A stretch of DNA of 64,000 bases from an uncultured Bacillota bacterium (GTDB lineage: Bacteria; Bacillota_I; Bacilli_A; RFN20; CAG-288). Position numbers and translations under genes: made by a program. Positions 3,461-20,845 of the stretch are shown in pieces (position 1 is the stretch's first letter; every line of letters starts with the position of its first letter). Below the pieces are notes generated by a model, which saw only the letters and a program-made list of their open reading frames with translations, was not told where the DNA came from and searched no databases. The stretch covers positions 124,001-188,000 of the forward strand of contig CASESG010000003.1 of assembly GCA_949290645.1 (NCBI GenBank), written 5' to 3'.

Positions 3461-3688
3461 ATGACCAAGAAGAAAGAGACAGAGGAGCTCTCGAAACTGA
3501 GCTATGCTGAGCTCGAGAAGAAGGCACAGCTTTCCCTCGATACCCTGGGAAAGGACGATCTGCCCCTGGACGAGGCGAAGAAAGTCTTCGACGAGGGAAA
3601 GAACATCCTCGACGAGATGCAGAAAAGGCTAGACGTGATGCAGAAGGAGGCGACCGACTCGATCGATGACAAGAGTCAAGCCGACTGA
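3461..3688 (+). CDS. xseB: Exodeoxyribonuclease VII small subunit
   Basis: This 75-residue helical protein has the family pattern LSYAELEKKAQLSLDTL ... LPLDEAKKVFDEGKNILDEM. XseB binds the XseA coiled coil and is needed for activity. AGGAGGA 3450-ish lies about 7 bases before ATG 3461. The last 23 bases overlap the start of dxs. Confidence 0.93.
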   Translation: MTKKKETEELSKLSYAELEKKAQLSLDTLGKDDLPLDEAKKVFDEGKNILDEMQKRLDVMQKEATDSIDDKSQAD

Positions 3689-5489
3689 ACCGCTCTCCCT
3701 TCTCAGCGACGACCAGGTGCGCGTTCTTGCCAGCGACCTCAGAAACGACATTCTCGCCAATGCCGAGATTTATGGTGGCCATCTCTCCAGCAATCTCGGA
3801 ATCGTCGAATTGACCCTGGGACTTCTCAGGCATTTCGACCCCTACAAGGACGACATCCTCTTCGATGTCGGCCATCAGACCTATGCCTACAAACTACTGA
3901 CAGGAAGGACCCTGAAAGGCCTTCGCCAATACAGGGGAACCTCTCCCTTTTCCGACCCCGATTCCTCCAAGGCCGACAAGTATCGCAACGGCCACGCCTC
4001 GACTGCCATCTCCGTCGCCTATGGAATGGCCCTGGCCAAGAAGGAGAAAGGGGATGAGAGCGCGACGATCGCGGTCGTCGGCGATGCCTCGATCGTCTCC
4101 GGGCTTTCGATGGAGGCCTTGGGCCTTCTTTCGGACGAGAAGAAGACGAAGCTCATCATCGTCCTCAACGACAACGGGATGTCGATCGGAAAGGATGTCT
4201 CCTTTTTGGGAAAGCAGTTCCAGAAGATCCGGAATTCCCTCTTCTACTTCCGCACCTCGACATGGCTTGGGCGGACCATGTCCCGGCATCGCTGGTCGTG
4301 GAAGCTGTTCTTGAAGTTGCGGGATCTCAAGGACACGATAAGGCGCCTGACGATCGCTCCGACGATCTTCGAGACGATGGGCTTGAAGTACATCGGCCCG
4401 TTCGACGGGCACGATTTCGCAAGCCTCGACCTGGCCTTCACCAAGGCCAAAACCCTCTCCGCAAAAGGACCGGTCGTCGTCCATGTCGTGACCAAGAAAG
4501 GCTATGGCTACGCGCCCGCGATGAAGGACGAGAAGGGAATCTTCCACGGTGTCCCCAAGCGCTTCGACGAGGAGAGGCCGGAGGAGGAATGTTCCTTCAC
4601 TTCCCTCAAGGCTCGTCTTTTGCTCGAGAAGATGAAAGAGGACGAGAAGGCTTTTGTCATCACCCCAGCCATGGTCTACGGATCGCATCTCGAGGAGATC
4701 TTCGAGAAGTATCCCGACCGCTGTTTGGACGTCGGAATCTGCGAGGAGAATGCGGTCTGCATGGCCTCCGGCTTGGCCTTGAAAGGTCTTCATCCGATCG
4801 TCGACATCTATTCGACCTTCCTTCAGAGAAGCTACGATGAGGTGATGGAAGATATCTCAAGGGAGAGGATCGCCGCTCTCTTTCTTGTGGAACGCTCGGG
4901 TCTTGTCGGGGAGGACGGGGAATCCCACCAGGGACTCTATGACGTCAGCTTCCTGAAATCCATCCCCAACGTCCGGATCTATCTCCCCTATGACGAAAGA
5001 AGCCTCGAGAGGATCTTCCGCAAACGTTACTTCGATAGGAATCGTCCGACCTTCGTCCGAATTCCCAAAGACCTCCCGCACGAGATCGAGGCGGAGGAGG
5101 ACGAGGAACTCTTTGTCGACTTCAAGGAGAAGAAGGGCAGTTCAAATCTCTTATTGGCCACAGGCCCCAATGGTGCCATCCTTTTGGAAAAGGCCGAGGG
5201 ACTTCCTCTGGACAAGGCGATGCTTCTTGACCTTTTTCCGAGACCGGACAAGTGGGAGAGGTTGCTCTCCAAGTACCGCAGAATCTTCTTCTACGACAGT
5301 TATTCGACCTTAGGAGGAAGTGCGGAAGCCTTGGGGAATGAAATCGCCCTGTCCCAGAACGACATTCGCTATCGACCCTTCTCCTTCGAGAAGAAGTTTG
5401 TCGCGCATGGCGACCTTCCTTCGCTCTATCGGGAGAACGATCTTCTTCCGGAGCAAGTCCTTGCCGAGTTACGAAAGGAGCTTTTATGA
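3666..5489 (+). CDS. dxs: 1-deoxy-D-xylulose-5-phosphate synthase
   Basis: DXS condenses pyruvate and glyceraldehyde 3-phosphate to make DXP, the first step of the MEP isoprenoid pathway. The 607 residues are normal for the family. Visible landmarks are GGHLSSNLGIVELTL, DVGHQTYAYKLLTGR, the thiamine-diphosphate motif VVGDASIVSGLSMEAL with IIVLNDNGMSIG, and the transketolase-type glutamate in DVGICEENAVCMASGLAL. The start overlaps xseB; AAGGAGG at 3644-3650 is 15 bases away, rather far, so translation may rely on coupling. In Bacillus ispA lies between xseB and dxs; it is absent here. ispG and ispH, later steps of the same pathway, are elsewhere in this window. Confidence 0.95.
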   Translation: MTRVKPTEPLSLLSDDQVRVLASDLRNDILANAEIYGGHLSSNLGIVELTLGLLRHFDPYKDDILFDVGHQTYAYKLLTGRTLKGLRQYRGTSPFSDPDSSKADKYRNGHASTAISVAYGMALAKKEKGDESATIAVVGDASIVSGLSMEALGLLSDEKKTKLIIVLNDNGMSIGKDVSFLGKQFQKIRNSLFYFRTSTWLGRTMSRHRWSWKLFLKLRDLKDTIRRLTIAPTIFETMGLKYIGPFDGHDFASLDLAFTKAKTLSAKGPVVVHVVTKKGYGYAPAMKDEKGIFHGVPKRFDEERPEEECSFTSLKARLLLEKMKEDEKAFVITPAMVYGSHLEEIFEKYPDRCLDVGICEENAVCMASGLALKGLHPIVDIYSTFLQRSYDEVMEDISRERIAALFLVERSGLVGEDGESHQGLYDVSFLKSIPNVRIYLPYDERSLERIFRKRYFDRNRPTFVRIPKDLPHEIEAEEDEELFVDFKEKKGSSNLLLATGPNGAILLEKAEGLPLDKAMLLDLFPRPDKWERLLSKYRRIFFYDSYSTLGGSAEALGNEIALSQNDIRYRPFSFEKKFVAHGDLPSLYRENDLLPEQVLAELRKELL

Positions 5490-7126: not shown

Positions 7127-8172
7127 AGGACATCGTCCATATCGACCTCAACGCCTTCTTCGCTCAAGCGGAATGCTTGCGCGATAAATCTCTCGTCGAC
7201 AAACCGCTGGCGGTCGGCTATGACGGAAGAAGAGGAGTGGTAGCAACCTGTTCCTATAAGGCCCGGGAATTCGGCGTGCATTCGGGAATGCCGATGTCGA
7301 TGGCAAAAGAACTTTGCCCACAGATCATCATTGTCGAAGGCCATTATGAATATTATCGGTATCTCTCCAAAAAATTCTTTGGCTATCTGAAAAAACGGTA
7401 TCCCATTCTCGAGCAGGCATCCATCGATGAATGCTATATCGACATGACCAAGGAAATCGATCACGAGGATATCCATGGCTATCTCTTTGACCTACAGCTT
7501 GCCCTGTATCGAAGCACGATGCTGAAGTGCTCGATCGGGTATGGGGCGAACAAGTTTCTCGCCAAGATGGGAAGCGACTATAAGAAGCCGATGGGCTTGA
7601 CGATTCTCACCAAGGGCAAGGTGAGCAAGCTTCTCTGGCCCCTCCCGATTGAGAAGATGTTCGGAATCGGTATCAAGACCGCTCCCCGATTGAGAGCCCT
7701 GGGGATTCTCACGATCGGAGATCTTGCCCAGACCATCGATCCGGCGGTCCGGAAAGTCCTCGGCTCCTCCTTCGAATACTATCAAGGAGAGGCCAATGGC
7801 TATGGGGACGACTTTGTCGATCCGTCCCTTTTCGATCCCAAATCCTGCTCCGCAGAGAGAACATTCTCCGAGGATATCACGGAGTACGACGAGATTCGGG
7901 ACATGATCCGGATCTGCAGTCAGGAAGTCTCCAGGGAATTGAAGAAATATCACAAGAAGGCCAAGGTCATCTCCATCAAGCTGAGGGATGATACTTTTCG
8001 CACATGGTCACGGAGGATGACATTGCCTCACTCCATACAAGAAGCCGGGGAAATTTTCTCCCAGGCCATGACAATCTTCGACCGTTGCTATGCGGATGAG
8101 AAGCTCCGCCTGATCGGGGTGGGAGTGGAAAAGGTCTCTCCGGAGAAGGGGGAAGACGATGAAGATCGCTGA
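7123..8172 (+). CDS. dinB: DNA polymerase IV (Y family)
   Basis: DinB is an error-prone translesion polymerase. The 349-residue protein has the first catalytic aspartate in IDLNAFFAQAE, the second acidic pair in QASIDECYIDMT, the palm-finger sequence ATCSYKAREFGVHSGMP, an HhH thumb region (KMFGIGIKTAPRLRALGI) and a little-finger domain. It starts within the recN stop (ATGA at 7123-7126) and ends 14 bases inside xerD. No recognisable clamp-binding tail was identified. Confidence 0.93.
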   Translation: MKDIVHIDLNAFFAQAECLRDKSLVDKPLAVGYDGRRGVVATCSYKAREFGVHSGMPMSMAKELCPQIIIVEGHYEYYRYLSKKFFGYLKKRYPILEQASIDECYIDMTKEIDHEDIHGYLFDLQLALYRSTMLKCSIGYGANKFLAKMGSDYKKPMGLTILTKGKVSKLLWPLPIEKMFGIGIKTAPRLRALGILTIGDLAQTIDPAVRKVLGSSFEYYQGEANGYGDDFVDPSLFDPKSCSAERTFSEDITEYDEIRDMIRICSQEVSRELKKYHKKAKVISIKLRDDTFRTWSRRMTLPHSIQEAGEIFSQAMTIFDRCYADEKLRLIGVGVEKVSPEKGEDDEDR

Positions 8173-9049
8173 GGCGATGGAGAACTATCTCGTCTATCTC
8201 ATGGCGGAGAAGGGAGATAGCAAGAAGACGATCGACGCCTATGAGAACGACTTGCATCAGTTCCTTCGATTCACGAAGAAAGAGCAAGCCGAGAAATTGA
8301 CCCTTCTGGATTACGAAGACCATCTAGCGTATCTCACCTCCGAGGGGCTGAGCAAGGCGAGTCTGTCAAGGAAGGCAACTACCATTAAGGGGTTCTATCG
8401 CTTCTTGAAGAACGAGGGCGTGATCACGGTGAGCCTGGGGGAGATGGAGCTTCCCAAGAGGTCGATCCGACTTCCCAGGACCCTCAGCGACCAGGAGATT
8501 CGAAAGCTCTTCGGGAGTGTTTCGACCGAAAGTTACAAAGGCCTTTTGAATCTCAGCATGATGGAGCTTTGCTACTCCTGCGGCCTTCGTGTTTCCGAGC
8601 TCTGCAACTTGAAGATCGACCAGGCGAATGTCCAGGACGGCTATCTCAAGATCAGGGGAAAGGGCGACAAGGAGAGAATGGTTCCGATGAATCGGGAATG
8701 CCAATCCTATCTCACTCTCTATCTCAAGGAGAGGAAAGCCTTGAAGAAGACCAAAGGAAAGAACCTCTTCCTTCATCAAGATGGTTCTCCCGTATCACGG
8801 CAGTACTTCTTCCTGGCTCTCCGGAAATACGGAAAGGAAGCCGGGCTTGGGGAGAACATCCATCCCCACATGCTGCGCCATTCCTTTGCGACGACACTCC
8901 TTGAAAACGGCGCTCCCATCAGGCAGGTGCAGGAACTTCTCGGGCACAGCAAAGTCGAGACGACGATGATCTACACCCAAGTCTCGACAAGGCTTAAGAG
9001 AGAGGGATACGACAAGGCCATGGACGGGGAGAAGGGGAAGCAAGCGTAA
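8159..9049 (+). CDS. xerD: Tyrosine site-specific recombinase, XerD type
   Basis: This 296-residue recombinase has the size and layout of XerD. The N-terminal SAM-like core-binding domain covers residues 1-95. The catalytic set is R144 (CGLRVSELC), K168 (GKGDKER), H237 and R240 (HPHMLRHSF), H263 (LGHSKVETT) and the nucleophile Y272 (MIYTQV). XerD with XerC resolves chromosome dimers at dif and is controlled by a DNA translocase. The xerD-deoB order matches Bacillus ripX-drm. A dif-like site lies about 3.3 kb downstream at 12319-12346. No XerC partner is seen in the window, so whether one or two recombinases act here is open. Confidence 0.93.
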   Translation: MKIAEAMENYLVYLMAEKGDSKKTIDAYENDLHQFLRFTKKEQAEKLTLLDYEDHLAYLTSEGLSKASLSRKATTIKGFYRFLKNEGVITVSLGEMELPKRSIRLPRTLSDQEIRKLFGSVSTESYKGLLNLSMMELCYSCGLRVSELCNLKIDQANVQDGYLKIRGKGDKERMVPMNRECQSYLTLYLKERKALKKTKGKNLFLHQDGSPVSRQYFFLALRKYGKEAGLGENIHPHMLRHSFATTLLENGAPIRQVQELLGHSKVETTMIYTQVSTRLKREGYDKAMDGEKGKQA

Positions 9050-9052
9050 GGC

Positions 9053-9081
9053 CTGCAAAGACGCGATTATCGGCGTATAAT
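9053..9081 (+). promoter_or_regulatory. Promoter for deoB
   Basis: A perfect -10 TATAAT at 9076-9081 is preceded at 17 bp by CTGCAA (9053-9058, three of six matches to TTGACA). Start of transcription near 9088 leaves a leader of about 13 bases containing GAGAGGT. The -10 box covers an upstream in-frame ATG at 9080, which therefore cannot be the start codon of deoB. Confidence 0.6.
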
Positions 9082-9100
9082 GGACAAGAGAGGTACAAAT

Positions 9101-10297
9101 ATGCCATTTCATAGAATCTTCCTGATCGTCATGGATTCGGTCGGAATCGGAGCCGAACCCGATGCCGAGAAATTCGGCGATCAGGGCACGAACACCTTCG
9201 TCCATACGGCTGCCTATTGTCACGGCCTGAACATTCCTAACCTCAATGCCTTGGGCATCGCCGACTTGGCACCGATTGAAGGAACATCCGTCGTCTCCCA
9301 TCCCAAGAGCTATGTCCAGACTCTACGCGAGGCTTCTAACGGCAAGGACACCTTGACCGGACACTGGGAGATGATGGGCATTCTGACACCCCATCCTTTG
9401 GTCACCTTCACCGAGACAGGTTTCCCGAAGGAACTCATTGAAGAGCTTGAGGAAAAGACTGGAAGGAAAGTCATCGGCAACTATTCCGAAAGCGGAACCG
9501 TCATTCTGAAACAGCTCGGCGAGCAGCAGACGAGAGATGGTTCCTTGATCGTTTATACATCTGCGGATTCCGTTCTTCAAATTGCCGCAAATGTCGAAAA
9601 GATGCCTCTGGAAGAGCTCTATCGTGACTGCGAGATTGCGCGAGAGATCACGATGCGTCCGGAATGGAAGGTCGGCCGTGTCATCGCCCGTCCGTATGTC
9701 GGAAAGAACAAGGACGATTTCACAAGGACTCCTGACCGAAAAGACTATGCCTTGTCTCCCAGCGGTAGGACGGCCCTCGATGATCTCAATAAGGCAGGAT
9801 TGGATGTCATCGCCGTCGGCAAGATTCACGACATCTTCAATGGACTTGGAATGACCCGCTCTCTTCACACCGTGAGCAACGAGGACGGAATGGAGAAGAC
9901 CATCGCCTTGGCCAAGGAGGACTTCCACGGACTCTGCTTTGTCAACTTGGTCGAATTCGACTCCCTCTACGGCCATCGCCGCAATCCTCTGGGATACGGA
10001 AAAGCCATCGAAGAATTCGACAAGAAACTGGGCGAATTGCTTCCTCTTCTGAAAGAAGACGACCTGCTGATGATCACTGCCGACCACGGAAATGACCCGA
10101 CCCATACAGGAACTGACCATACGAGAGAGCGTGTCCCTCTGCTCAGCTACAGTCCGAAATATCAAAACGGGCGGAAGCTGGAGGAAAGAGAGACCTTTGC
10201 GGTCATCGGAAAGACCGTGTTGAATAACTTCTCCGTCAAGCCGTCTCGTAACCAAATCGGAACTCCGATCGAGGAACTGCTCGACGTGAAAGCCTAG
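9101..10297 (+). CDS. deoB: Phosphopentomutase
   Basis: DeoB interconverts (deoxy)ribose 1- and 5-phosphate in nucleoside salvage, with manganese. The 398-residue protein belongs to the alkaline phosphatase superfamily: the metal-binding start is FLIVMDSVGIGAEPDA, the nucleophile threonine lies in SNGKDTLTGHWEMMG, and the C-terminal metal site is MITADHGNDPTHTGTDHTRE. ATG 9101 is chosen because AGAGGT is 7 bases upstream and the alternative ATG 9080 lies within the -10 box. The xerD-deoB adjacency is conserved in Bacillus, where a purine nucleoside phosphorylase follows; here a transport lipoprotein follows. Confidence 0.95.
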   Translation: MPFHRIFLIVMDSVGIGAEPDAEKFGDQGTNTFVHTAAYCHGLNIPNLNALGIADLAPIEGTSVVSHPKSYVQTLREASNGKDTLTGHWEMMGILTPHPLVTFTETGFPKELIEELEEKTGRKVIGNYSESGTVILKQLGEQQTRDGSLIVYTSADSVLQIAANVEKMPLEELYRDCEIAREITMRPEWKVGRVIARPYVGKNKDDFTRTPDRKDYALSPSGRTALDDLNKAGLDVIAVGKIHDIFNGLGMTRSLHTVSNEDGMEKTIALAKEDFHGLCFVNLVEFDSLYGHRRNPLGYGKAIEEFDKKLGELLPLLKEDDLLMITADHGNDPTHTGTDHTRERVPLLSYSPKYQNGRKLEERETFAVIGKTVLNNFSVKPSRNQIGTPIEELLDVKA

Positions 10298-10310: not shown

Positions 10311-11366
10311 ATGAAACTGGAAAAACTACTTTTTGTCTTTGCCCTCCCTCTTCTTGTCTCTTGCCAGCCGTCCCATCCTTCGACCTCGACTTCCTCCTTG
10401 TCTTCTTCCACTTCATCGTCGGAAAAGGAAAGTTCTTCGATATCATCCTCGGAAGAATCAACCTCCTCAAGCTCTTCCGTCTCTTACGATGACAAAGAGA
10501 CCTCTTTCCAAGTTGTCTCACCCCAAGGGGCTCCGGCGGCTGCCTTGGCTCGTTATGCGAACGACGACTCGGTTGTCTTCGGTGGCGCACAGGACGTGAA
10601 GGCGGCCTTTACGAGTGCGACTTCCGATTTCATCATCTTCGATTCCGTCAACGGAATGAAGCTTTCCAAGGACAACTACCGTCTTGTCCGCATGGTCACG
10701 TTCGGAAATCTGTATCTCGTGTCGACCGGAAACGACGAGGATGGCGTACCGAGCGAGGATGATTTCATCTTCTCCTATGGCAAGGATCTTGTTCCCGACC
10801 TCGCCTTCCGCGCTGTCAGCGAACTCACGATCGATGCCTATGGAGCACAGGTCTCCGACACCGGCCCAGTTCTCAAGTCAGGCATCTACCAGGGGACGAA
10901 GGTCGACTATGTCGTCTCCAGCTATCCGGTGATTGCGAACATGATGGCAGATACCACGAAGCTGACCGACCTCTCGATCACGATGAACGTTGCGGAAGAA
11001 TTCGGAAAGAAATATGGAACGGATGGCTTCCCTCAGGCTGGACTATTCATCAAGAAGAGCCTTCAGGATGACTCCTCCAAGAGGGTAGAAATCGAGCATT
11101 TCCTGACGGTCTTCGATGCGGATGTGCGAGATTTGATCGCAGGCGGTGGGCATGCCGTCTCCTTCCTGAACGATTACGGAGACAACACGAAACAGGCCTC
11201 CCGCTTCGGCTTCAACTCCACGACCTTGGAGAAGTCCCAAGAGAACAACGGCCTTGCCTTCCTGGCAAGGGATGACAATCCGAGCTTGGATGAGTACTCG
11301 GTCTTCGAGAAACCTCTTGGCATCACATTGCCGGAGGGAATCCTTTCGAATTACTATCCTGCTTGA
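10311..11366 (+). CDS. Substrate-binding lipoprotein of an ABC importer (NitT/TauT-like), substrate unknown
   Basis: The 351-residue protein starts with a lipoprotein signal (KLEKLLFVFALPLLVSC), with C18 as the lipidated residue. A serine/threonine/glutamate-rich linker to about residue 60 follows, then a periplasmic-binding-like fold starting FQVVSPQGAPAAALARYA. The phrase TSATSDFIIFDSVNGMKLS and the following NLYLVST resemble NitT/TauT or NMT1-like binding proteins. The permease gene follows directly, overlapping the stop. Substrates of this family range from sulfonates to vitamins and pyrimidine precursors; nothing here settles the choice. No ATPase gene is nearby. AAAGG lies 9 bases before ATG 10311. 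Confidence 0.78.
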   Translation: MKLEKLLFVFALPLLVSCQPSHPSTSTSSLSSSTSSSEKESSSISSSEESTSSSSSVSYDDKETSFQVVSPQGAPAAALARYANDDSVVFGGAQDVKAAFTSATSDFIIFDSVNGMKLSKDNYRLVRMVTFGNLYLVSTGNDEDGVPSEDDFIFSYGKDLVPDLAFRAVSELTIDAYGAQVSDTGPVLKSGIYQGTKVDYVVSSYPVIANMMADTTKLTDLSITMNVAEEFGKKYGTDGFPQAGLFIKKSLQDDSSKRVEIEHFLTVFDADVRDLIAGGGHAVSFLNDYGDNTKQASRFGFNSTTLEKSQENNGLAFLARDDNPSLDEYSVFEKPLGITLPEGILSNYYPA

Positions 11367-12139
11367 TGATCATGAAGAAGCTCAAGGCGATTGCAAAGAG
11401 TCGAATCTTCCAATATGGTCTTGGGCTTCTTTTCTTGGTTGCGTTGTGGGAGATCGTCGCCTATGCGACCGGCCTTCTCTTCCTTCCGGAATTCTTCCAG
11501 ACTTTTTCCCTCGCCATTTCGAAACTTGGCGAAGAATTGACCTATTCGGCGCTCGGATACAGCTTCCTGCGCCTTTTTGTCGCTCTCCTGGGAAGTGGAA
11601 TCCTCGGCCTTGTCCTTGGCACGTTGGCGGGCTATTACGAGCCCCTGGGAAGAGTCTTGTCTCCGACGATTGCGGTCTTGCGCGCTTTCCCGACCATCGC
11701 CTTGATCCTGCTCTTGATCGTCTTTGTCCCACAGACAGCGATATGGGTCGTCAGCCTGGTTCTCTTCCCCGTCCTCTATCAGGCGTCTTTGAGCGGAAGC
11801 CGGAGAGTCTACAAGGATTATGAGATGGTTCTCCGACTCAAAGGAAAAAACAATCTTAGCAACATCACGAAGATAATCCTTCCTCTGTCGATGGATTATG
11901 TCCTTCTCGGCTGGACACAATCGATGGGGCTCGGACTCAAGATTGTGATCATGGCAGAGACCTTTACTTTCCGGACGAATCAATTGGGAATTGGTAACTT
12001 GATCAATTCCTCGTATCAAAACTTGAACTATCCGGACATGATGGCCTATGTGCTGATCTCATTGCTAGTCATCTTGCTCTTGGACTTCTTGCTTCATTTT
12101 GCGAAGAAGACGCTGCAAGGCAAGAAGAAGGAAGAGTGA
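11366..12139 (+). CDS. ABC importer permease, SsuC/TauC-like
   Basis: The 257-residue protein has six hydrophobic segments and the BPD-transporter inner membrane layout of SsuC/TauC/ThiX permeases: FLRLFVALLGSGILGLVLG, then VLRAFPTIALILLLIVF and a cytoplasmic coupling loop near GSRRVYKDYEMVLRLKG. It should form the membrane channel for the lipoprotein encoded just before it. No Shine-Dalgarno sequence is visible next to ATG 11366 or ATG 11372; the start overlaps the upstream stop, so coupling is likely. The expected ATP-binding subunit is not adjacent; the gene is followed by the A+T-rich island. Confidence 0.82.
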   Translation: MIMKKLKAIAKSRIFQYGLGLLFLVALWEIVAYATGLLFLPEFFQTFSLAISKLGEELTYSALGYSFLRLFVALLGSGILGLVLGTLAGYYEPLGRVLSPTIAVLRAFPTIALILLLIVFVPQTAIWVVSLVLFPVLYQASLSGSRRVYKDYEMVLRLKGKNNLSNITKIILPLSMDYVLLGWTQSMGLGLKIVIMAETFTFRTNQLGIGNLINSSYQNLNYPDMMAYVLISLLVILLLDFLLHFAKKTLQGKKKEE

Positions 12140-12318
12140 ATTATAAAATAGTTTGTAAATAGTACTAAATAATAACTGAAGCTTTATTTAGGCAAATAAT
12201 TAGTGATAGTAAATAAGTGGTACTATATTTCAACTATTTATCATTAAATATGAAAGGTTTTTGCTTTTAGTAGCATTTTAGCACTAAATATTAACTAGAT
12301 GAGTTTTCTTCATCAATT

Positions 12319-12346
12319 TATTAACATAATAGATATTATGCGCATA
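12319..12346 (-). other. dif: dif-like site for Xer recombination
   Basis: On the plus strand the 28 bases read as an 11-bp arm TATTAACATAA, a 6-bp centre TAGATA and an 11-bp arm TTATGCGCATA. Read on the minus strand this gives TATGCGCATAA, TATCTA, TTATGTTAATA. The Escherichia coli dif site, as I recall it, is GGTGCGCATAA, TGTATA, TTATGTTAAAT: 9/11, 4/6 and 9/11 positions agree, with all inner arm bases identical. The inner arms also form the expected imperfect inverted repeat. It lies 3.3 kb from xerD and exactly where gene orientation switches. Function is inferred from similarity and position. Confidence 0.82.
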
Positions 12347-12398: not shown

Positions 12399-12416
12399 TA
12401 CTATTTTGATACTAAT
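12399..12416 (+). repeat. Direct repeat copy 1 (partner at 12493-12510)
   Basis: TACTATTTTGATACTAAT here and TACTATATTTATACTAAT at 12493-12510 agree at 16 of 18 positions, 94 bp apart, on either side of the hairpin terminator. A shorter relative, GGTACTATATTT, is at 12219-12230. Their role is unknown. Confidence 0.6.
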
Positions 12417-12420
12417 TTCT

Positions 12421-12457
12421 AAACAAAAAAAGAATGCCTAGACTACCTAGGCATTCT
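12421..12457 (-). terminator. Rho-independent terminator of the leftward mtnN cluster
   Basis: A perfect 11-bp stem AGAATGCCTAG / CTAGGCATTCT (12431-12441 and 12447-12457) with a 5-base loop is followed, on the minus strand, by a T-run interrupted once (complement of 12421-12430). On the plus strand no T-run follows, so it serves only the leftward transcript ending with mtnN about 100 bases upstream. Confidence 0.85.
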
Positions 12458-12492
12458 ATAGAAGATTTAATTAAGAAATAGTTCTATTTTGG

Positions 12493-12510
12493 TACTATAT
12501 TTATACTAAT
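12493..12510 (+). repeat. Direct repeat copy 2 (partner at 12399-12416)
   Basis: TACTATATTTATACTAAT, differing from copy 1 at two positions. The preceding GGTACTATAT is also shared with 12219-12228. Confidence 0.6.
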
Positions 12511-12557
12511 CATTGATTCAATCAGTTCGCATCAATTTGGTGAATTTATAGTACCAT

Positions 12558-13241
12558 CTATATACTAGAATACAATCTCAAGATTTCCAACGCCATTCTT
12601 GCCGCTCGGTCGCTGGCTTCGGCGACATTTTTCTCATATTCCTTTTCGTCGTCGGATGTCGTGACGGTATCGGAGACCGTTCGCAGAATTCCATAGGGCA
12701 CCTTTCCGATATAGGCGGATTCGCCGACGGAGGCGGATTCCATATCGATGGCCAGAGGATGGTCGAAATCCCTCTCGATTCCTTCCGGAAGGTTGTTCTT
12801 CGTCACGAAGAGATCTCCCGTGAGAACCAGGCCCGTCTTGACCTCTGAATCAATCTGCTTAGCCAGTTCGACAATCTTCTCGTCGCATTCAAAATAGAGA
12901 GGCATATCATCCATCTTTCCTCTTGGTAGGCCAGGCAGGGATACGTCATAGTAGGCGCTTTTTGTCGCACAGAAGATGTCCATCGGCTTGAGCTCGTCCG
13001 ATAGGGAGCCGGCGACTCCGATGTTCAGAATCAGGTCATAGTGTTTCCGGGCATAGCAAAGCCCCAGCATGAAAGCCATCGCCGCCTTTCCGATTCCGCC
13101 GTGGATGACATCGAGATGGTAGTTCTCTTCGTCACGGCTGAAAAACTTGTTGGCGCCGATTCCTTCCGACTTCAAGGAACAGACACGTCTTAGAGCGGCG
13201 AGCTCGTTATCGGTCGCGACGACAAGGAGGATGTTCTTCAT
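12558..13241 (-). CDS. mtnN: 5'-methylthioadenosine/S-adenosylhomocysteine nucleosidase
   Basis: MtnN cleaves adenine from methylthioadenosine, S-adenosylhomocysteine and 5'-deoxyadenosine, clearing by-products of SAM use. The 227 residues match the family: VVATDNELAAL at the start with the catalytic-region acidic residue, VIHGGIGKAAMAF, LILNIGVAGSL, the purine/ribose site LAIDMESASVGESAY, and a C-terminal RTVSDT with the catalytic aspartate. It ends the leftward yqeG-yqeH-yqeK-rsfS run, one base after rsfS, and its last codons are already in A+T-rich sequence. The terminator at 12421-12457 lies beyond. Confidence 0.93.
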   Translation of the reverse strand: MKNILLVVATDNELAALRRVCSLKSEGIGANKFFSRDEENYHLDVIHGGIGKAAMAFMLGLCYARKHYDLILNIGVAGSLSDELKPMDIFCATKSAYYDVSLPGLPRGKMDDMPLYFECDEKIVELAKQIDSEVKTGLVLTGDLFVTKNNLPEGIERDFDHPLAIDMESASVGESAYIGKVPYGILRTVSDTVTTSDDEKEYEKNVAEASDRAARMALEILRLYSSI

Positions 13242-16308: not shown

Positions 16309-16337
16309 ATTATATCAGAATCAGTTTTGCTTGTCTT
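16309..16337 (-). promoter_or_regulatory. Promoter for yqeG, predicted leaderless
   Basis: On the minus strand AAGACA (16337-16332), a 17-bp spacer and TGATATAAT (extended -10, TATAAT at 16314-16309) are followed by only six bases, GGAAGT, before the ATG at 16302. Transcription would begin at or next to the A of the start codon. The promoter overlaps the last codons of parC. Confidence 0.65.
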
Positions 16338-18921
16338 TCTCGAAGAGATCGAAGAGAGAGAGTTGCGTATCGGCCTTGTCGGGGCCGGCCTTGACGGGGT
16401 TCACCTTGACGACTTTCGGCGTCTCGATCGGGAAGGTCGCATCGATGACGGTTCCGTCGTCATCCCTTCCGATGATGGTTTCCTTTCCGAGGGCGGGGAT
16501 GTTCTCGCGCATGTCGGAATTGAGAGCGACCTTGGTCAGTTCGCCCAAGTCGATGACGGCCGATAGGGTCTTTGTGGAGACTCCGACGACGCTTCTTTGT
16601 CCGCGCACCTTGTCGACCTTGGAGAGCGAGACCAGAAGGAGCGGATTCTTCTTGAAGATGCGAACCAAGTTCGTCTTGGCTCCGAGCCGATTTGTGGTCT
16701 CGATGTCGGCCGAGGAGATGAGACGGCAGGCCCTACGGTCGGCCAGGATCAGAAGCAGGGAAGCCTCATTGCTGGAGAGGGTCACAAGGGAGATCAAGGG
16801 CGCGTTGTCAATCGAGCTAGAGATGGCTTTGACGCCCATCGCAGTGAGGCTGACCTCGGGGATTTCCGATTCGTTGAAGCGGCTGGCCCTTCCGAGGTTG
16901 TCGACGACGATGACGTCGCTGTTTCCGCCGGTCATCTCGACTCCGACGACCTCGTCCTGGTCATTCATGAGCTTGCAGGCGCGGAAGGTCCTCTTGGTCA
17001 ATCCGGTTTGACGGAATTCCACAAGGGGAGTCCTCTTGATCTTATTCTCCTTGGTCAGGATGACGACGTCGATTCCGGGGCGGAATTCATCCAGAAGGAA
17101 GGCCTTGACGATCCTCTCGCTCGGCCTGAGCGTGAGAAGGTTGTTGAGATGCTTTCCTTCCTCCTTCCACTTGAGCTCGGCGAGGAGATAGACGGGAAGA
17201 TAGCCGTAGTTTCCACGGTCGGTGAAGAAGAGGATCGAGTCGTGGGTGGAGCACTTCCTCCGGAAGACGACCCGGTCTCCGGGCTTGAGCTTAGGAAGGA
17301 CGAGCGGATCGTCCTTGTTGGCGTCGCAGGAGGCTTGGTAAGACTTCGGAGTCGTCCTCTTGGCATAGCCGTCCATCGTGATTGCGACGTAGCAGTCTTC
17401 CTTGGCGATGAGCTTGGTCTGGTCGATGGCGTCGAAGACGAGCTTCTCGTCGAGGATCTTCGTCTTCCTCTCGTGCCCGAAGGAAGAAGAGACTTCCTTG
17501 AGGCCCTTGATGATCTCGCGGTCCAGCTTCTCCGAATCCGAAAGCAGGCCCTTGAGCCGTTCGATGTCTTTTCGAAGCTCCCCGTCTTCCTGATAGAGAG
17601 CCTGGATGTCGGTGTTGGAGAGACGGTAGAGAGGGAGCATCGCGATCGCTTCGGACTGGTTCTCCGTGAAGCCGTAGTCGTCCTGGAGCATCTTTTTGAC
17701 GGATTCCTTGCCGGAGCACTTCTTGATCTTCTCGATGACCTCGTCAAGGATGGAATAGACCTTGATCAAGCCGGCGACGATCTCAAGCCTGGCTTGATCC
17801 TTCTTGAGCTCAAAGTCCGAAAGCCTCGTCTGGATGTCGCGCTGATGGTCGATGAAGGCATCGAGGATATCGATGAGCGGAAGAGTCTTCGGGTGTCCCT
17901 TGTCGATGGCGAGAAAGTTGCAGGCGATCGTCGTGCGGAGAAGACCCTTCCCCTGGAGATAGTTCAGGACATCTTCCGGAGAGGCGCCCTTCTTGATGTA
18001 GAGCACGATGTGGACATCGTCCTTGGCCGATTCATCAATGATTTCCTCGATGTTGTCGAGATTGTCCGTTTCCTTTCTCTTCTGAAGAGTTGTCACGAAG
18101 TCTTTCTTTACGACCCCGTAAGGAATCTCGTCGATGATGATTGTGTTGTTCTCATGATCGATCTTGGTATCGCAATAGAGGTAGAACGAGCCCTTTCCGG
18201 TCTCGTAGAGAGAGCGCAAATCTTCCTTGTCGTCGATCACGCCCCCGGTCGGGAAATCCGGTCCCTTGATGAACTTGAGGATGTCGTCGAGGTTGACCCT
18301 GCGGTGCTGGATGCGATAGATCGTCGCATCGATGACTTCCTTGAGGTTGTGGCTGGGAATGTAAGTCGTCGAACCGACGGCGATTCCTTGCGTCCCGTTG
18401 ACGAGGAGGTTGGGAAAGCGGGCCGGAAGGACGGTCGGCTCGAGGGACTTGTCGTCGAAGGTCGGGACCATCTCGACCAGGTCCTTCTCGATGTCCTTGA
18501 CCAAGTAGGCGCTCAACTTACTGAGCCTTGCCTCGGTATAACGGTTGGCGGCGGCGGGATCGTCGTCGATGGAGCCGTTGTTTCCCTGGAAGTCGACCAG
18601 AGGCTCTTCCATCTTCCAACCCTGGGAGAGATGGACAAGGGCGTCGTAGATAGAGCTGTCGCCGTGAGGATGATAGTGACCCATGACGTGTCCGACGATG
18701 GTCGCGCATTTCACGGTCGGCTTCTCGAAGACGTTCCCCTGCTCGAACATGTCGTAGACGATGCGCCTCTGGACGGGCTTGAGACCGTCGCGGACATCCG
18801 GGATGGCACGATCGGTGATGACGGCCTTGGCATAGCGGTTGAATGCCGAGACCAGGACGTCGCTGAGCTGGGAGGGAACGATCTCCTCGCTGACGACCGG
18901 CTGTTTCTTGTTACTTCTCAC
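16321..18921 (-). CDS. parC: DNA topoisomerase IV subunit A
   Basis: ParC is the DNA-cutting subunit of topoisomerase IV, which unlinks sister chromosomes. The 866-residue protein shows the family start (RAIPDVRDGLKPVQRRIVYDM), the GHYHPHGDSSIYDALV region, the catalytic tyrosine Y128 in AANRYTEARL, and a C-terminal beta-propeller with repeated strands such as VVGVEMTGGNSDVIVVDNLG. The ParC call, not GyrA, rests on the gene partner and on the lack of a clear GyrA box. It starts at GTG 18921 with GGAGG 6 bases upstream, overlapping the parE stop by 11 bases. Confidence 0.92.
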   Translation of the reverse strand: MRSNKKQPVVSEEIVPSQLSDVLVSAFNRYAKAVITDRAIPDVRDGLKPVQRRIVYDMFEQGNVFEKPTVKCATIVGHVMGHYHPHGDSSIYDALVHLSQGWKMEEPLVDFQGNNGSIDDDPAAANRYTEARLSKLSAYLVKDIEKDLVEMVPTFDDKSLEPTVLPARFPNLLVNGTQGIAVGSTTYIPSHNLKEVIDATIYRIQHRRVNLDDILKFIKGPDFPTGGVIDDKEDLRSLYETGKGSFYLYCDTKIDHENNTIIIDEIPYGVVKKDFVTTLQKRKETDNLDNIEEIIDESAKDDVHIVLYIKKGASPEDVLNYLQGKGLLRTTIACNFLAIDKGHPKTLPLIDILDAFIDHQRDIQTRLSDFELKKDQARLEIVAGLIKVYSILDEVIEKIKKCSGKESVKKMLQDDYGFTENQSEAIAMLPLYRLSNTDIQALYQEDGELRKDIERLKGLLSDSEKLDREIIKGLKEVSSSFGHERKTKILDEKLVFDAIDQTKLIAKEDCYVAITMDGYAKRTTPKSYQASCDANKDDPLVLPKLKPGDRVVFRRKCSTHDSILFFTDRGNYGYLPVYLLAELKWKEEGKHLNNLLTLRPSERIVKAFLLDEFRPGIDVVILTKENKIKRTPLVEFRQTGLTKRTFRACKLMNDQDEVVGVEMTGGNSDVIVVDNLGRASRFNESEIPEVSLTAMGVKAISSSIDNAPLISLVTLSSNEASLLLILADRRACRLISSADIETTNRLGAKTNLVRIFKKNPLLLVSLSKVDKVRGQRSVVGVSTKTLSAVIDLGELTKVALNSDMRENIPALGKETIIGRDDDGTVIDATFPIETPKVVKVNPVKAGPDKADTQLSLFDLFEKDKQN

Positions 18922-20845
18922 GTTTCACCTCCTTGGTGAAGTTGTCCTTGGTGGTGAAGTCGATGTTGTTCTCGATCCAATCCTTGCGGCGGTCGGTGTC
19001 ACGCCCCAAGAAGATGTTCACCTTGTCCTTGCACTCCTCGTCGTCTTGGATGAAGACCTGGAGGAGCTTTCTCTTCTCCGGCTGCATCGTCGTGTGGGAG
19101 AGCTGGTCGTAGTTCATCTCGCCTAAGCCCTTGTAGCGGTTGACGCGGTATCCGCGTCCAATCTCCGCCTTGGCCTTCTCGAGCTCGTTGTCGTCGTAGC
19201 AATAGATTTCCTTCTTCCCGGCATAGACGCGATAAAGGGGAGGGCAGGCGATATAGACATGTCCCGTCTCGAGAAGGGGCTTCATGTGGTTGTAGAAGAA
19301 GGTCAGAAGCAAGGACTGGATGTGGCTTCCGTCGTCATCGGCATCGGTCATGATGATGACCTTGCCGTAGTGGATGTCCTTGATCTTGAAGTCGGAGTCG
19401 AAGCCAGCCCCGATCGTGTAGATCAAGGTGGCGATTTCCTTGTTTCCCAGGAGGGCCTTCTCGTCCTCGACGTCGGTCGTGTTCTTGGGCTTTCCGCGCA
19501 GAGGAAGAATGGCCTGGTACTTGGGGTTTCTTCCCTTCTTGGCGCTGCCGCCGGCGGAGTCGCCCTCGACGATGAAGAGCTCGTTCTTGCTGTAGTCCTT
19601 GCTTGAACAGGGGGTCAGCTTGTCGGAGAGGGTGAAGCCGGAGACCTTGCTCTTGAGCAATTCTCGCTCCTTCTTCCTCTCGTTCTCGGCCTTGGCCCGG
19701 ACGCGCATCTCGTCGATCGTCTTCTTGCAGACGGCGACCGCTTCCGGCTCGTGCTCCTCGAGATAGTAGGCCAACTTGCTCTCAATCGTCCGGTCGACGG
19801 CGTTGAGTGCTTCCTTCGTCCCGAGCTTTCCCTTGGTCTGGCCCTCGAACTGAAGGAGGTGCTCTGGAACCCAGGTAGAGAGGATCGCCACCAAGCCTTC
19901 GCGAAGGCAGTCGCCGTCGAGAGACTCGTTGTTGCGGATCAGACGATGGTTAATGGCATAGGAGTTGAAGCAATTGGTCAGGGCCTTCTTGAGACCCGTG
20001 ACGTGATAGCCACCGTCTCCCGTGCGGACGCCGTTTGCGAAGGAGATGATCTTCTCGTCATAGTTGTCCTTGAGGAAGCCGAAGACACACTCGACGCGGA
20101 TTCCTTCGTCCGATGTCCCTTCGATGTGGATGGAAGAGGTGAGCCCTTCCTTGTTGACGGTGTGGCGCTGATAGTATTCCTGAAGTCCGTTCTCGTAATA
20201 GAAATCCTGCTTCCTACCCGTCCTTTCGTCCAGGAGATGGAAGGTGACCCCCTTCGTCAGGCAGGCCTGGTCGTCGAGATGCTGGGCGATGCGGTCGAAG
20301 GAGAAGGTGATGTCGGAGAAGATGCGGTCGTCGGGATAGAAGCGGACATCCGTGCCGCGCTTGGTTGTCGGCCCCATGTCCTTGAGCTCGCTCGCCGTCT
20401 TTCCTCCGTCCTCAAAGCGCATGAAATGATCTCTTCCGTCACGGAAGGAATGGACTTCCATCCAGAGGGAGAGGGCATTGGTGACCGAGGCGCCGACGCC
20501 GTGCAGGCCGCCTGCGCTCTTGTAGAGGTTCTCGTCGAACTTTCCGCCTCCGTGAAGAGTCTGATAGACGATCTGGAAGCCGTTCTTCTTCTCCGCCTTG
20601 TTGTAGTCGTAGGGGATTCCTCGTCCCTGGTCCTGAACCTCCAGGGAGCCGTCGTCGTGGATGGTGACGTAGATGTGCTTTCCGTGACCTTCGTTGGCTT
20701 CGTCGACGGCGTTGTCGACAATCTCCCAGACGAGATGGTGCAGACCGACCGTATCCGTCGATCCGATATACATTCCGGGCCTTTGTCGGACCGGTTCCAA
20801 GCCGTGGAGGACCTTGAGCTCCGAAGCGGAATAATCATTTGCCAT
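18911..20845 (-). CDS. parE: DNA topoisomerase IV subunit B
   Basis: ParE is the ATPase subunit of topoisomerase IV. In 644 residues it shows the GHKL ATPase site (RPGMYIGSTDTVGLHHLVWE, EIVDNAVDEANEGH, DQGRGIPYDY, SAGGLHGVGASVTNALS), the transducer lysine region, and the TOPRIM domain (LFIVEGDSAGGSAKKGRN, then MTDADDDGSHIQ). ATG 20845 follows GAGGT at a spacing of 8. parC is coupled directly behind. An A+T-rich divergent spacer of 90 bases separates it from plsY; TAAAAT at 20871-20866 may be its -10. Confidence 0.93.
   Translation of the reverse strand: MANDYSASELKVLHGLEPVRQRPGMYIGSTDTVGLHHLVWEIVDNAVDEANEGHGKHIYVTIHDDGSLEVQDQGRGIPYDYNKAEKKNGFQIVYQTLHGGGKFDENLYKSAGGLHGVGASVTNALSLWMEVHSFRDGRDHFMRFEDGGKTASELKDMGPTTKRGTDVRFYPDDRIFSDITFSFDRIAQHLDDQACLTKGVTFHLLDERTGRKQDFYYENGLQEYYQRHTVNKEGLTSSIHIEGTSDEGIRVECVFGFLKDNYDEKIISFANGVRTGDGGYHVTGLKKALTNCFNSYAINHRLIRNNESLDGDCLREGLVAILSTWVPEHLLQFEGQTKGKLGTKEALNAVDRTIESKLAYYLEEHEPEAVAVCKKTIDEMRVRAKAENERKKERELLKSKVSGFTLSDKLTPCSSKDYSKNELFIVEGDSAGGSAKKGRNPKYQAILPLRGKPKNTTDVEDEKALLGNKEIATLIYTIGAGFDSDFKIKDIHYGKVIIMTDADDDGSHIQSLLLTFFYNHMKPLLETGHVYIACPPLYRVYAGKKEIYCYDDNELEKAKAEIGRGYRVNRYKGLGEMNYDQLSHTTMQPEKRKLLQVFIQDDEECKDKVNIFLGRDTDRRKDWIENNIDFTTKDNFTKEVKREK

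Follow-up and report, generated by a model that had tools for sequence, protein, structure and literature searches.

The region examined here raises two questions: whether a 28-bp sequence in the window (the whole 64,000-nucleotide stretch of Bacillota DNA that was analysed) is a chromosomal dif site marking the replication terminus, as an earlier sequence-only reading had proposed, and what role the DNA immediately around it might have. The 28-mer, TATTAACATAATAGATATTATGCGCATA, lies at 12319–12346 on the + strand and comprises the XerD arm TATTAACATAA, the centre TAGATA and the XerC arm TTATGCGCATA. It is written here from the XerD arm to the XerC arm, the reverse of the usual XerC-to-XerD notation. 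The architecture is canonical (28 bp, 11-bp arms, a 6-bp centre and a conserved XerD arm). Comparison with the reference E. coli dif (PMC3025954) gave 22 of 28 equal positions with identical inner arms, the same figures as in the earlier reading; the B. subtilis dif agrees at 18 of 28. In the 1,225,511-bp, nine-contig assembly, estimated to be 85% complete, the 28-mer is the sole site at up to three mismatches, and shuffled window sequence yielded none at that threshold; the search for a second copy that had been suggested thus came back empty. The 2-kb bin containing the site has the lowest G+C in the window (0.463, against 0.515–0.575 elsewhere), as expected from the A+T-rich island described before, and the site divides rightward-running genes from leftward-running ones, starting 3.3 kb past the end of xerD, the distance originally given.

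The site is retained well beyond this species. A dif-form sequence was found in 13 of the 14 other genomes of the genus (14/15 counting the window's own); the G005 site was missed by the first pattern and recovered in a later search, flanked by matches to the array described below. At one mismatch, 22 of 23 family genomes contain such a site, some of these matches being due to chance, and it is present in nearly all examined members of the order. Across the class, 166 of 296 genomes gave a match, while the reversed pattern returned only a handful. The window's draft genome carries dnaA on another contig, and the terminus was therefore placed by orthology with G003, a single-contig relative of 2,079,823 bp, in which dnaA occupies 808,753–810,057 and dif lies at 1,871,767, 51.1% of the way round the circle. 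Single-copy occurrence and retention of the same syntenic place throughout the order uphold the dif call and, together with the G003 position, the terminus claim: the 28-mer is predicted to be a genuine chromosomal dif, the site of chromosome separation.

On the 192,650-bp contig that holds the window, GC skew, which had been put forward as a check, stays near zero and shows no sign change at dif; the genus is nearly without skew. In G003, of which about half of the genome was sampled, the two replichores have mean GC skews of 0.001 and 0.007 (p = 0.6), differ slightly in AT skew (p = 0.015) and show almost no coding-strand bias (53% vs 47%). With GC skew nearly absent in the genus, a skew test cannot decide where the terminus lies; with strand bias nearly absent as well, the convergence of genes on dif, which had been read as a terminus signature, is real but is no sign of the replichores. 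No KOPS/SRS octamer polarity was found in the window's contig or the sampled part of G003. The near-zero GC skew and leading-strand coding bias of the sampled G003 stretches (L099–L152) are in themselves unusual for Bacillota. Strongly one-sided octamers were also seen in these stretches (GTTCTAACAATACACTCAAAC and shifted forms), suggesting a direct-repeat array such as CRISPR.

Two genomic settings showed a second dif-like sequence. Contig C136 of G009 (L095) has a near-identical, inverted pair at 4710–4735 and 4855–4880, about 145 bp apart and beside the array, such that Xer action could flip the intervening segment. In family f13, a second, degenerate and inverted site lies a few dozen bases from dif (L192 of G033, 3637–3712; G069:C1:505286–505341; G057:C1:764337–764392).

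The XerC arm had been regarded as enterobacterial in type. For the window species this is correct as far as the letters go, its arm agreeing with E. coli at 9 of 11 positions and with Bacillus at 5 of 11; the genus-consensus arm, TTAT(A/G)CGAAGT, matches Bacillus better (9/11) than E. coli (7/11). Arms with GCGAA or ACGAA are common throughout the order, as they are among the class's other families, so the arm is a drifted Bacillota arm that bears no proteobacterial mark, and the GCGCA of the window species is a local, species-level variant rather than a proteobacterial import.

The enzymatic partners of the site are encoded in these genomes. The xerD gene (8159–9049, + strand) specifies a tyrosine recombinase in which the catalytic residues R, K, H, R, H and Y are all present on alignment to E. 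coli XerD (1a0p). A xerC gene adjoins topA on contig C7 of the same assembly, and FtsK-gamma accompanies the two recombinases, being detected in 13 of 15 genus genomes, with the window's own below the curated cut-off. With both XerC and XerD present and a canonical 6-bp spacer, a single-recombinase module of the XerS or XerH type was rejected. In the window's genome (C7:17001–20500, L084) and in G003 (L085), XerC carries an in-frame fusion to a HAD-hydrolase domain (Pfam HAD_2, E 3e-21); open frames of about 540–600 residues occur in at least nine genus members, and frames of unfused length, about 300–370, in others.

Downstream of xerD lie deoB (phosphopentomutase; 9080–10297, + strand), which adjoins xerD in all linked relatives compared by BLAST, barring missing matches, and an ABC-transporter permease gene (11363–12139, + strand), the last gene directed at dif. 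An mtnN-like nucleosidase gene (12558–13241, − strand) is directed at dif from the opposite side, and parC and parE, encoding topoisomerase IV, occupy 16321–20845 (− strand) on the far flank. Across the genus the block reads dxs-recN-dinB-xerD-deoB-(lipoprotein-ABC permease)-dif-mtnN-rsfS-yqeK-yqeH-yqeG-parC-parE, and it recurs elsewhere in the order with losses and insertions. Wherever the two share a contig in the genus, dif follows xerD on its strand, 1.5–12 kb downstream. This proximity extends to the family's other genera, to two further families of the order (f2 and f3), and to f5, f7, f9, f11, f15, f16 and f20, but not to f13, f14 or f23, at 58–175 kb. The xerD–dif linkage is real, same-strand and order-wide, and is the reverse of the general trend described by Kono et al. 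2011, in which xerC is the gene close to dif and xerD the one close to the origin (PMC3025954): here xerD is a few kilobases from dif, and the xerC of G003 lies 0.28 Mb away from dnaA but 0.78 Mb away from dif. Closeness of a xer gene to its own site is shared with the XerS/difSL and XerH/difH modules (PMC5357621, PMC2731167), from which the present arrangement differs in having two recombinases and a 28-bp site with a 6-bp spacer, with the gene and site 1.4–12 kb apart and other genes in between.

A further feature, absent from the sequence-only reading, flanks the site. The 418-bp intergenic region between the convergent permease and mtnN genes, within which dif lies, contains a 30-bp palindrome five times over; its form is TAGT-N7-TRGTACYA-N7-ACTA, and each copy is composed of four half-sites at 11-bp steps. 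Three copies lie to the left of dif, at 12149–12178 (TAGT-N7-TAGTACTA-N7-ACTG), 12207–12236 (TAGT-N7-TGGTACTA-N7-ACTA) and 12268–12297 (TAGT-N7-TAGCACTA-N7-ACTA), and two to the right, at 12479–12508 (TAGT-N7-TGGTACTA-N7-ACTA) and 12538–12567 (TGGT-N7-TAGTACCA-N7-ACTA), the last overlapping the 3′-terminal 10 bp of mtnN. A partial site, a direct ACTA-N7-ACTA half-site pair, is found at 12400–12414, and the intrinsic terminator of the leftward mtnN operon (12431–12457, − strand) is separate from the array. TAGT-N11-ACTA occurs five times on the 192,650-bp contig, always in the dif region, against a dinucleotide-shuffle expectation of 0.02.

Both the genus and one sister genus have the array around dif, with three to seven copies placed on both sides within about 400 bp. 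All the genomes compared are drafts. Genome-wide, about 89 of 93 TAGT-N7-TRGYACYA matches in the 15 genus genomes fall within about 420 bp of dif (7/7 in the window's genome), and a position-weight scan away from dif, covering the window's contig and the sampled half of G003, returned no array site. In an unbiased scan of gapped 4-mer palindromes, TAGT-N11 topped the ranking, alone or tied, in 12 of 14 genomes and came second in the remaining two. Alignment of 61 sites from the 14 genomes gave the consensus TAGTa-N6-TRGTACYA-N6-tACTA, the half-sites carrying some 1 to 2.6 bits per base and the spacers about 0.3 or less; since the half-sites are conserved while the spacers diverge, the copies are not recent duplicates. 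Gaps between sites fall near multiples of the helical turn (p ~0.006), which is suggestive only, and the helical phase relative to dif gives a weak signal. The sequence, uniqueness, conservation and position of the array, and the presence of the partner genes of dif, are direct observations. A literature search for TAGTACTA or for arrays beside bacterial dif sites found no precedent, although flanking repeats are reported in archaea; the array around dif is previously unremarked.

Simpler forms of the motif occur outside this group. The palindrome is absent from families f2 and f3 and from other f1 genera, where TAGT-N7-TAGT direct repeats lie about 110–165 bp from dif on the XerD-arm side in 20 of 22 genomes; in 15 of the 22 a DnaA-box-like GTGGAWAA comes next, roughly between −72 and −117. 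The window's genus lacks this box. Family f11 (L176–L179, L181, L182) has a DnaA-box-like TTWTCCACA exactly at −48 from dif in six of seven genomes. Conserved, clade-specific sequence on the left flank of dif thus reaches well beyond the genus, and we infer that the direct repeat is ancestral to the palindrome.

Several explanations of the array were weighed. That it consists of chance repeats or a decayed mobile element beside an ordinary dif would fit the A+T-richness of the region here, and dif regions in general attract mobile elements and tend to A+T-richness. Counts across species strongly disfavour it: 87 half-site pairs were observed in 14 genomes where dinucleotide shuffles give 0.48, half-sites hold while spacers diverge, and in 24 viral contigs the 30-mer was met only singly, at roughly chance level, on which ground a viral origin was rejected. 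We consider this explanation extremely improbable. Transcription-factor operators or an RNA element serving the flanking genes, unrelated to dif, would account for the operator-like look of the motifs, and OmpR/PhoB regulators typically have half-sites spaced 11 bp apart. However, gene ends converge on the region from both sides at all array loci, making promoter operators unlikely; where 2.5–8.6 kb separate dif from the xerD-side genes (G003, G007, G013), the array remains with dif and not with the genes; the window's genome has no copies elsewhere; and no Rfam family matches the region. Such a regulatory role is accordingly improbable.

A replication fork barrier, in which RTP/Ter-like sites are recognised by an unrelated terminator protein, has somewhat more in its favour and is still unlikely. 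The elements are 30 bp long, have four half-sites and stand on both flanks of the terminus, and the four half-sites parallel the four RTP monomers bound per ter in B. subtilis (PMC10331603). In two f3 genomes (G052 and G110), moreover, mirror ACTA-N7-ACTA repeats lie on the opposite side of dif, so that half-sites face it from the left (TAGT) and from the right (ACTA) like opposed polar traps. Against this, no RTP match was found in 15 genomes, with a B. subtilis control positive; the genus sites are symmetric, and hence not polar, and are crowded within 400 bp on both sides; and family f2 has half-sites on the left side only. The absence of RTP and the symmetry of the sites together make a Bacillus-type polar fork trap less likely, and membership of the RTP–Ter class was rejected, as no RTP is encoded and there are no opposed polar A/B sites.

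We therefore favour, as the probable reading, that the array is an accessory platform dedicated to dif and used by a putative terminus or Xer protein, with dif itself as the XerCD/FtsK resolution site. Its occurrence at dif and almost nowhere else in the genus suggests that a putative protein marks the chromosome terminus. Elsewhere in the class dif lacks the array, which also differs between genera within one family and is therefore not needed for Xer recombination as such. XerC and XerD, gated by FtsK, would resolve chromosome dimers at the 28-mer, while a putative DNA-binding protein would most likely bind the array cooperatively. The geometry of four half-sites at 11 bp implies such cooperative binding on one helix face, and its pitch would fit head-to-tail winged-helix pairs in a symmetric tetramer; its confinement to dif implies that it acts at the terminus. 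The resulting nucleoprotein platform would mark or organise the terminus, and may assist or restrain Xer synapsis, FtsK arrival or decatenation, with terminus positioning also possible. Binding of the array by a protein, its action on dif or the terminus, and who the binder is are what we infer from sequence. Somewhat better than evenly balanced is the fuller proposal of a dedicated terminus-recognition system, in which the protein on the helically phased TAGT array couples dimer resolution, decatenation or terminus positioning, and which grew out of a half-site repeat found order-wide next to the XerD arm.

Set against known systems, the locus shares with the dif/XerCD-FtsK systems of E. coli and B. 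subtilis the single-copy bipartite site, the XerC, XerD and FtsK-gamma genes and, in G003, a dif opposite dnaA; it differs in its species-specific XerC arm and its dedicated flanking motif array. Terminus-marking palindromes are known from the MatP–matS system of Enterobacteria, where matS is 13 bp long and spread over hundreds of kilobases; here the 30-bp sites lie close around dif. Accessory DNA beside a Xer site is a property of cer and psi, bound by ArgR/ArcA and PepA, which are plasmid-borne, whereas this array is chromosomal. RTP–Ter of Bacillus shares sites of about 30 bp near the terminus, with four subunits there and four half-sites here, but the present array is non-polar and hugs dif. 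The nearest precedent is the dif of Thermococcales, whose conserved flanking inverted repeats were proposed as a site for a partner not yet known (PMC2958812); that flank is about 23 bp and A+T-rich, in contrast to the bacterial multi-copy array of four-half-site palindromes described here.

The recN-dinB-xerD-deoB…dif…parC-parE block brings the recombinase, its site and the decatenase genes together at the terminus. Chromosomal dif is usually taken to work with XerCD and FtsK alone, and that of E. coli is not known to need accessory sites. A conserved, helically spaced array exclusive to dif suggests that a large uncultured clade has an additional terminus protein, and the array sequence provides an exact bait for finding the putative binder.
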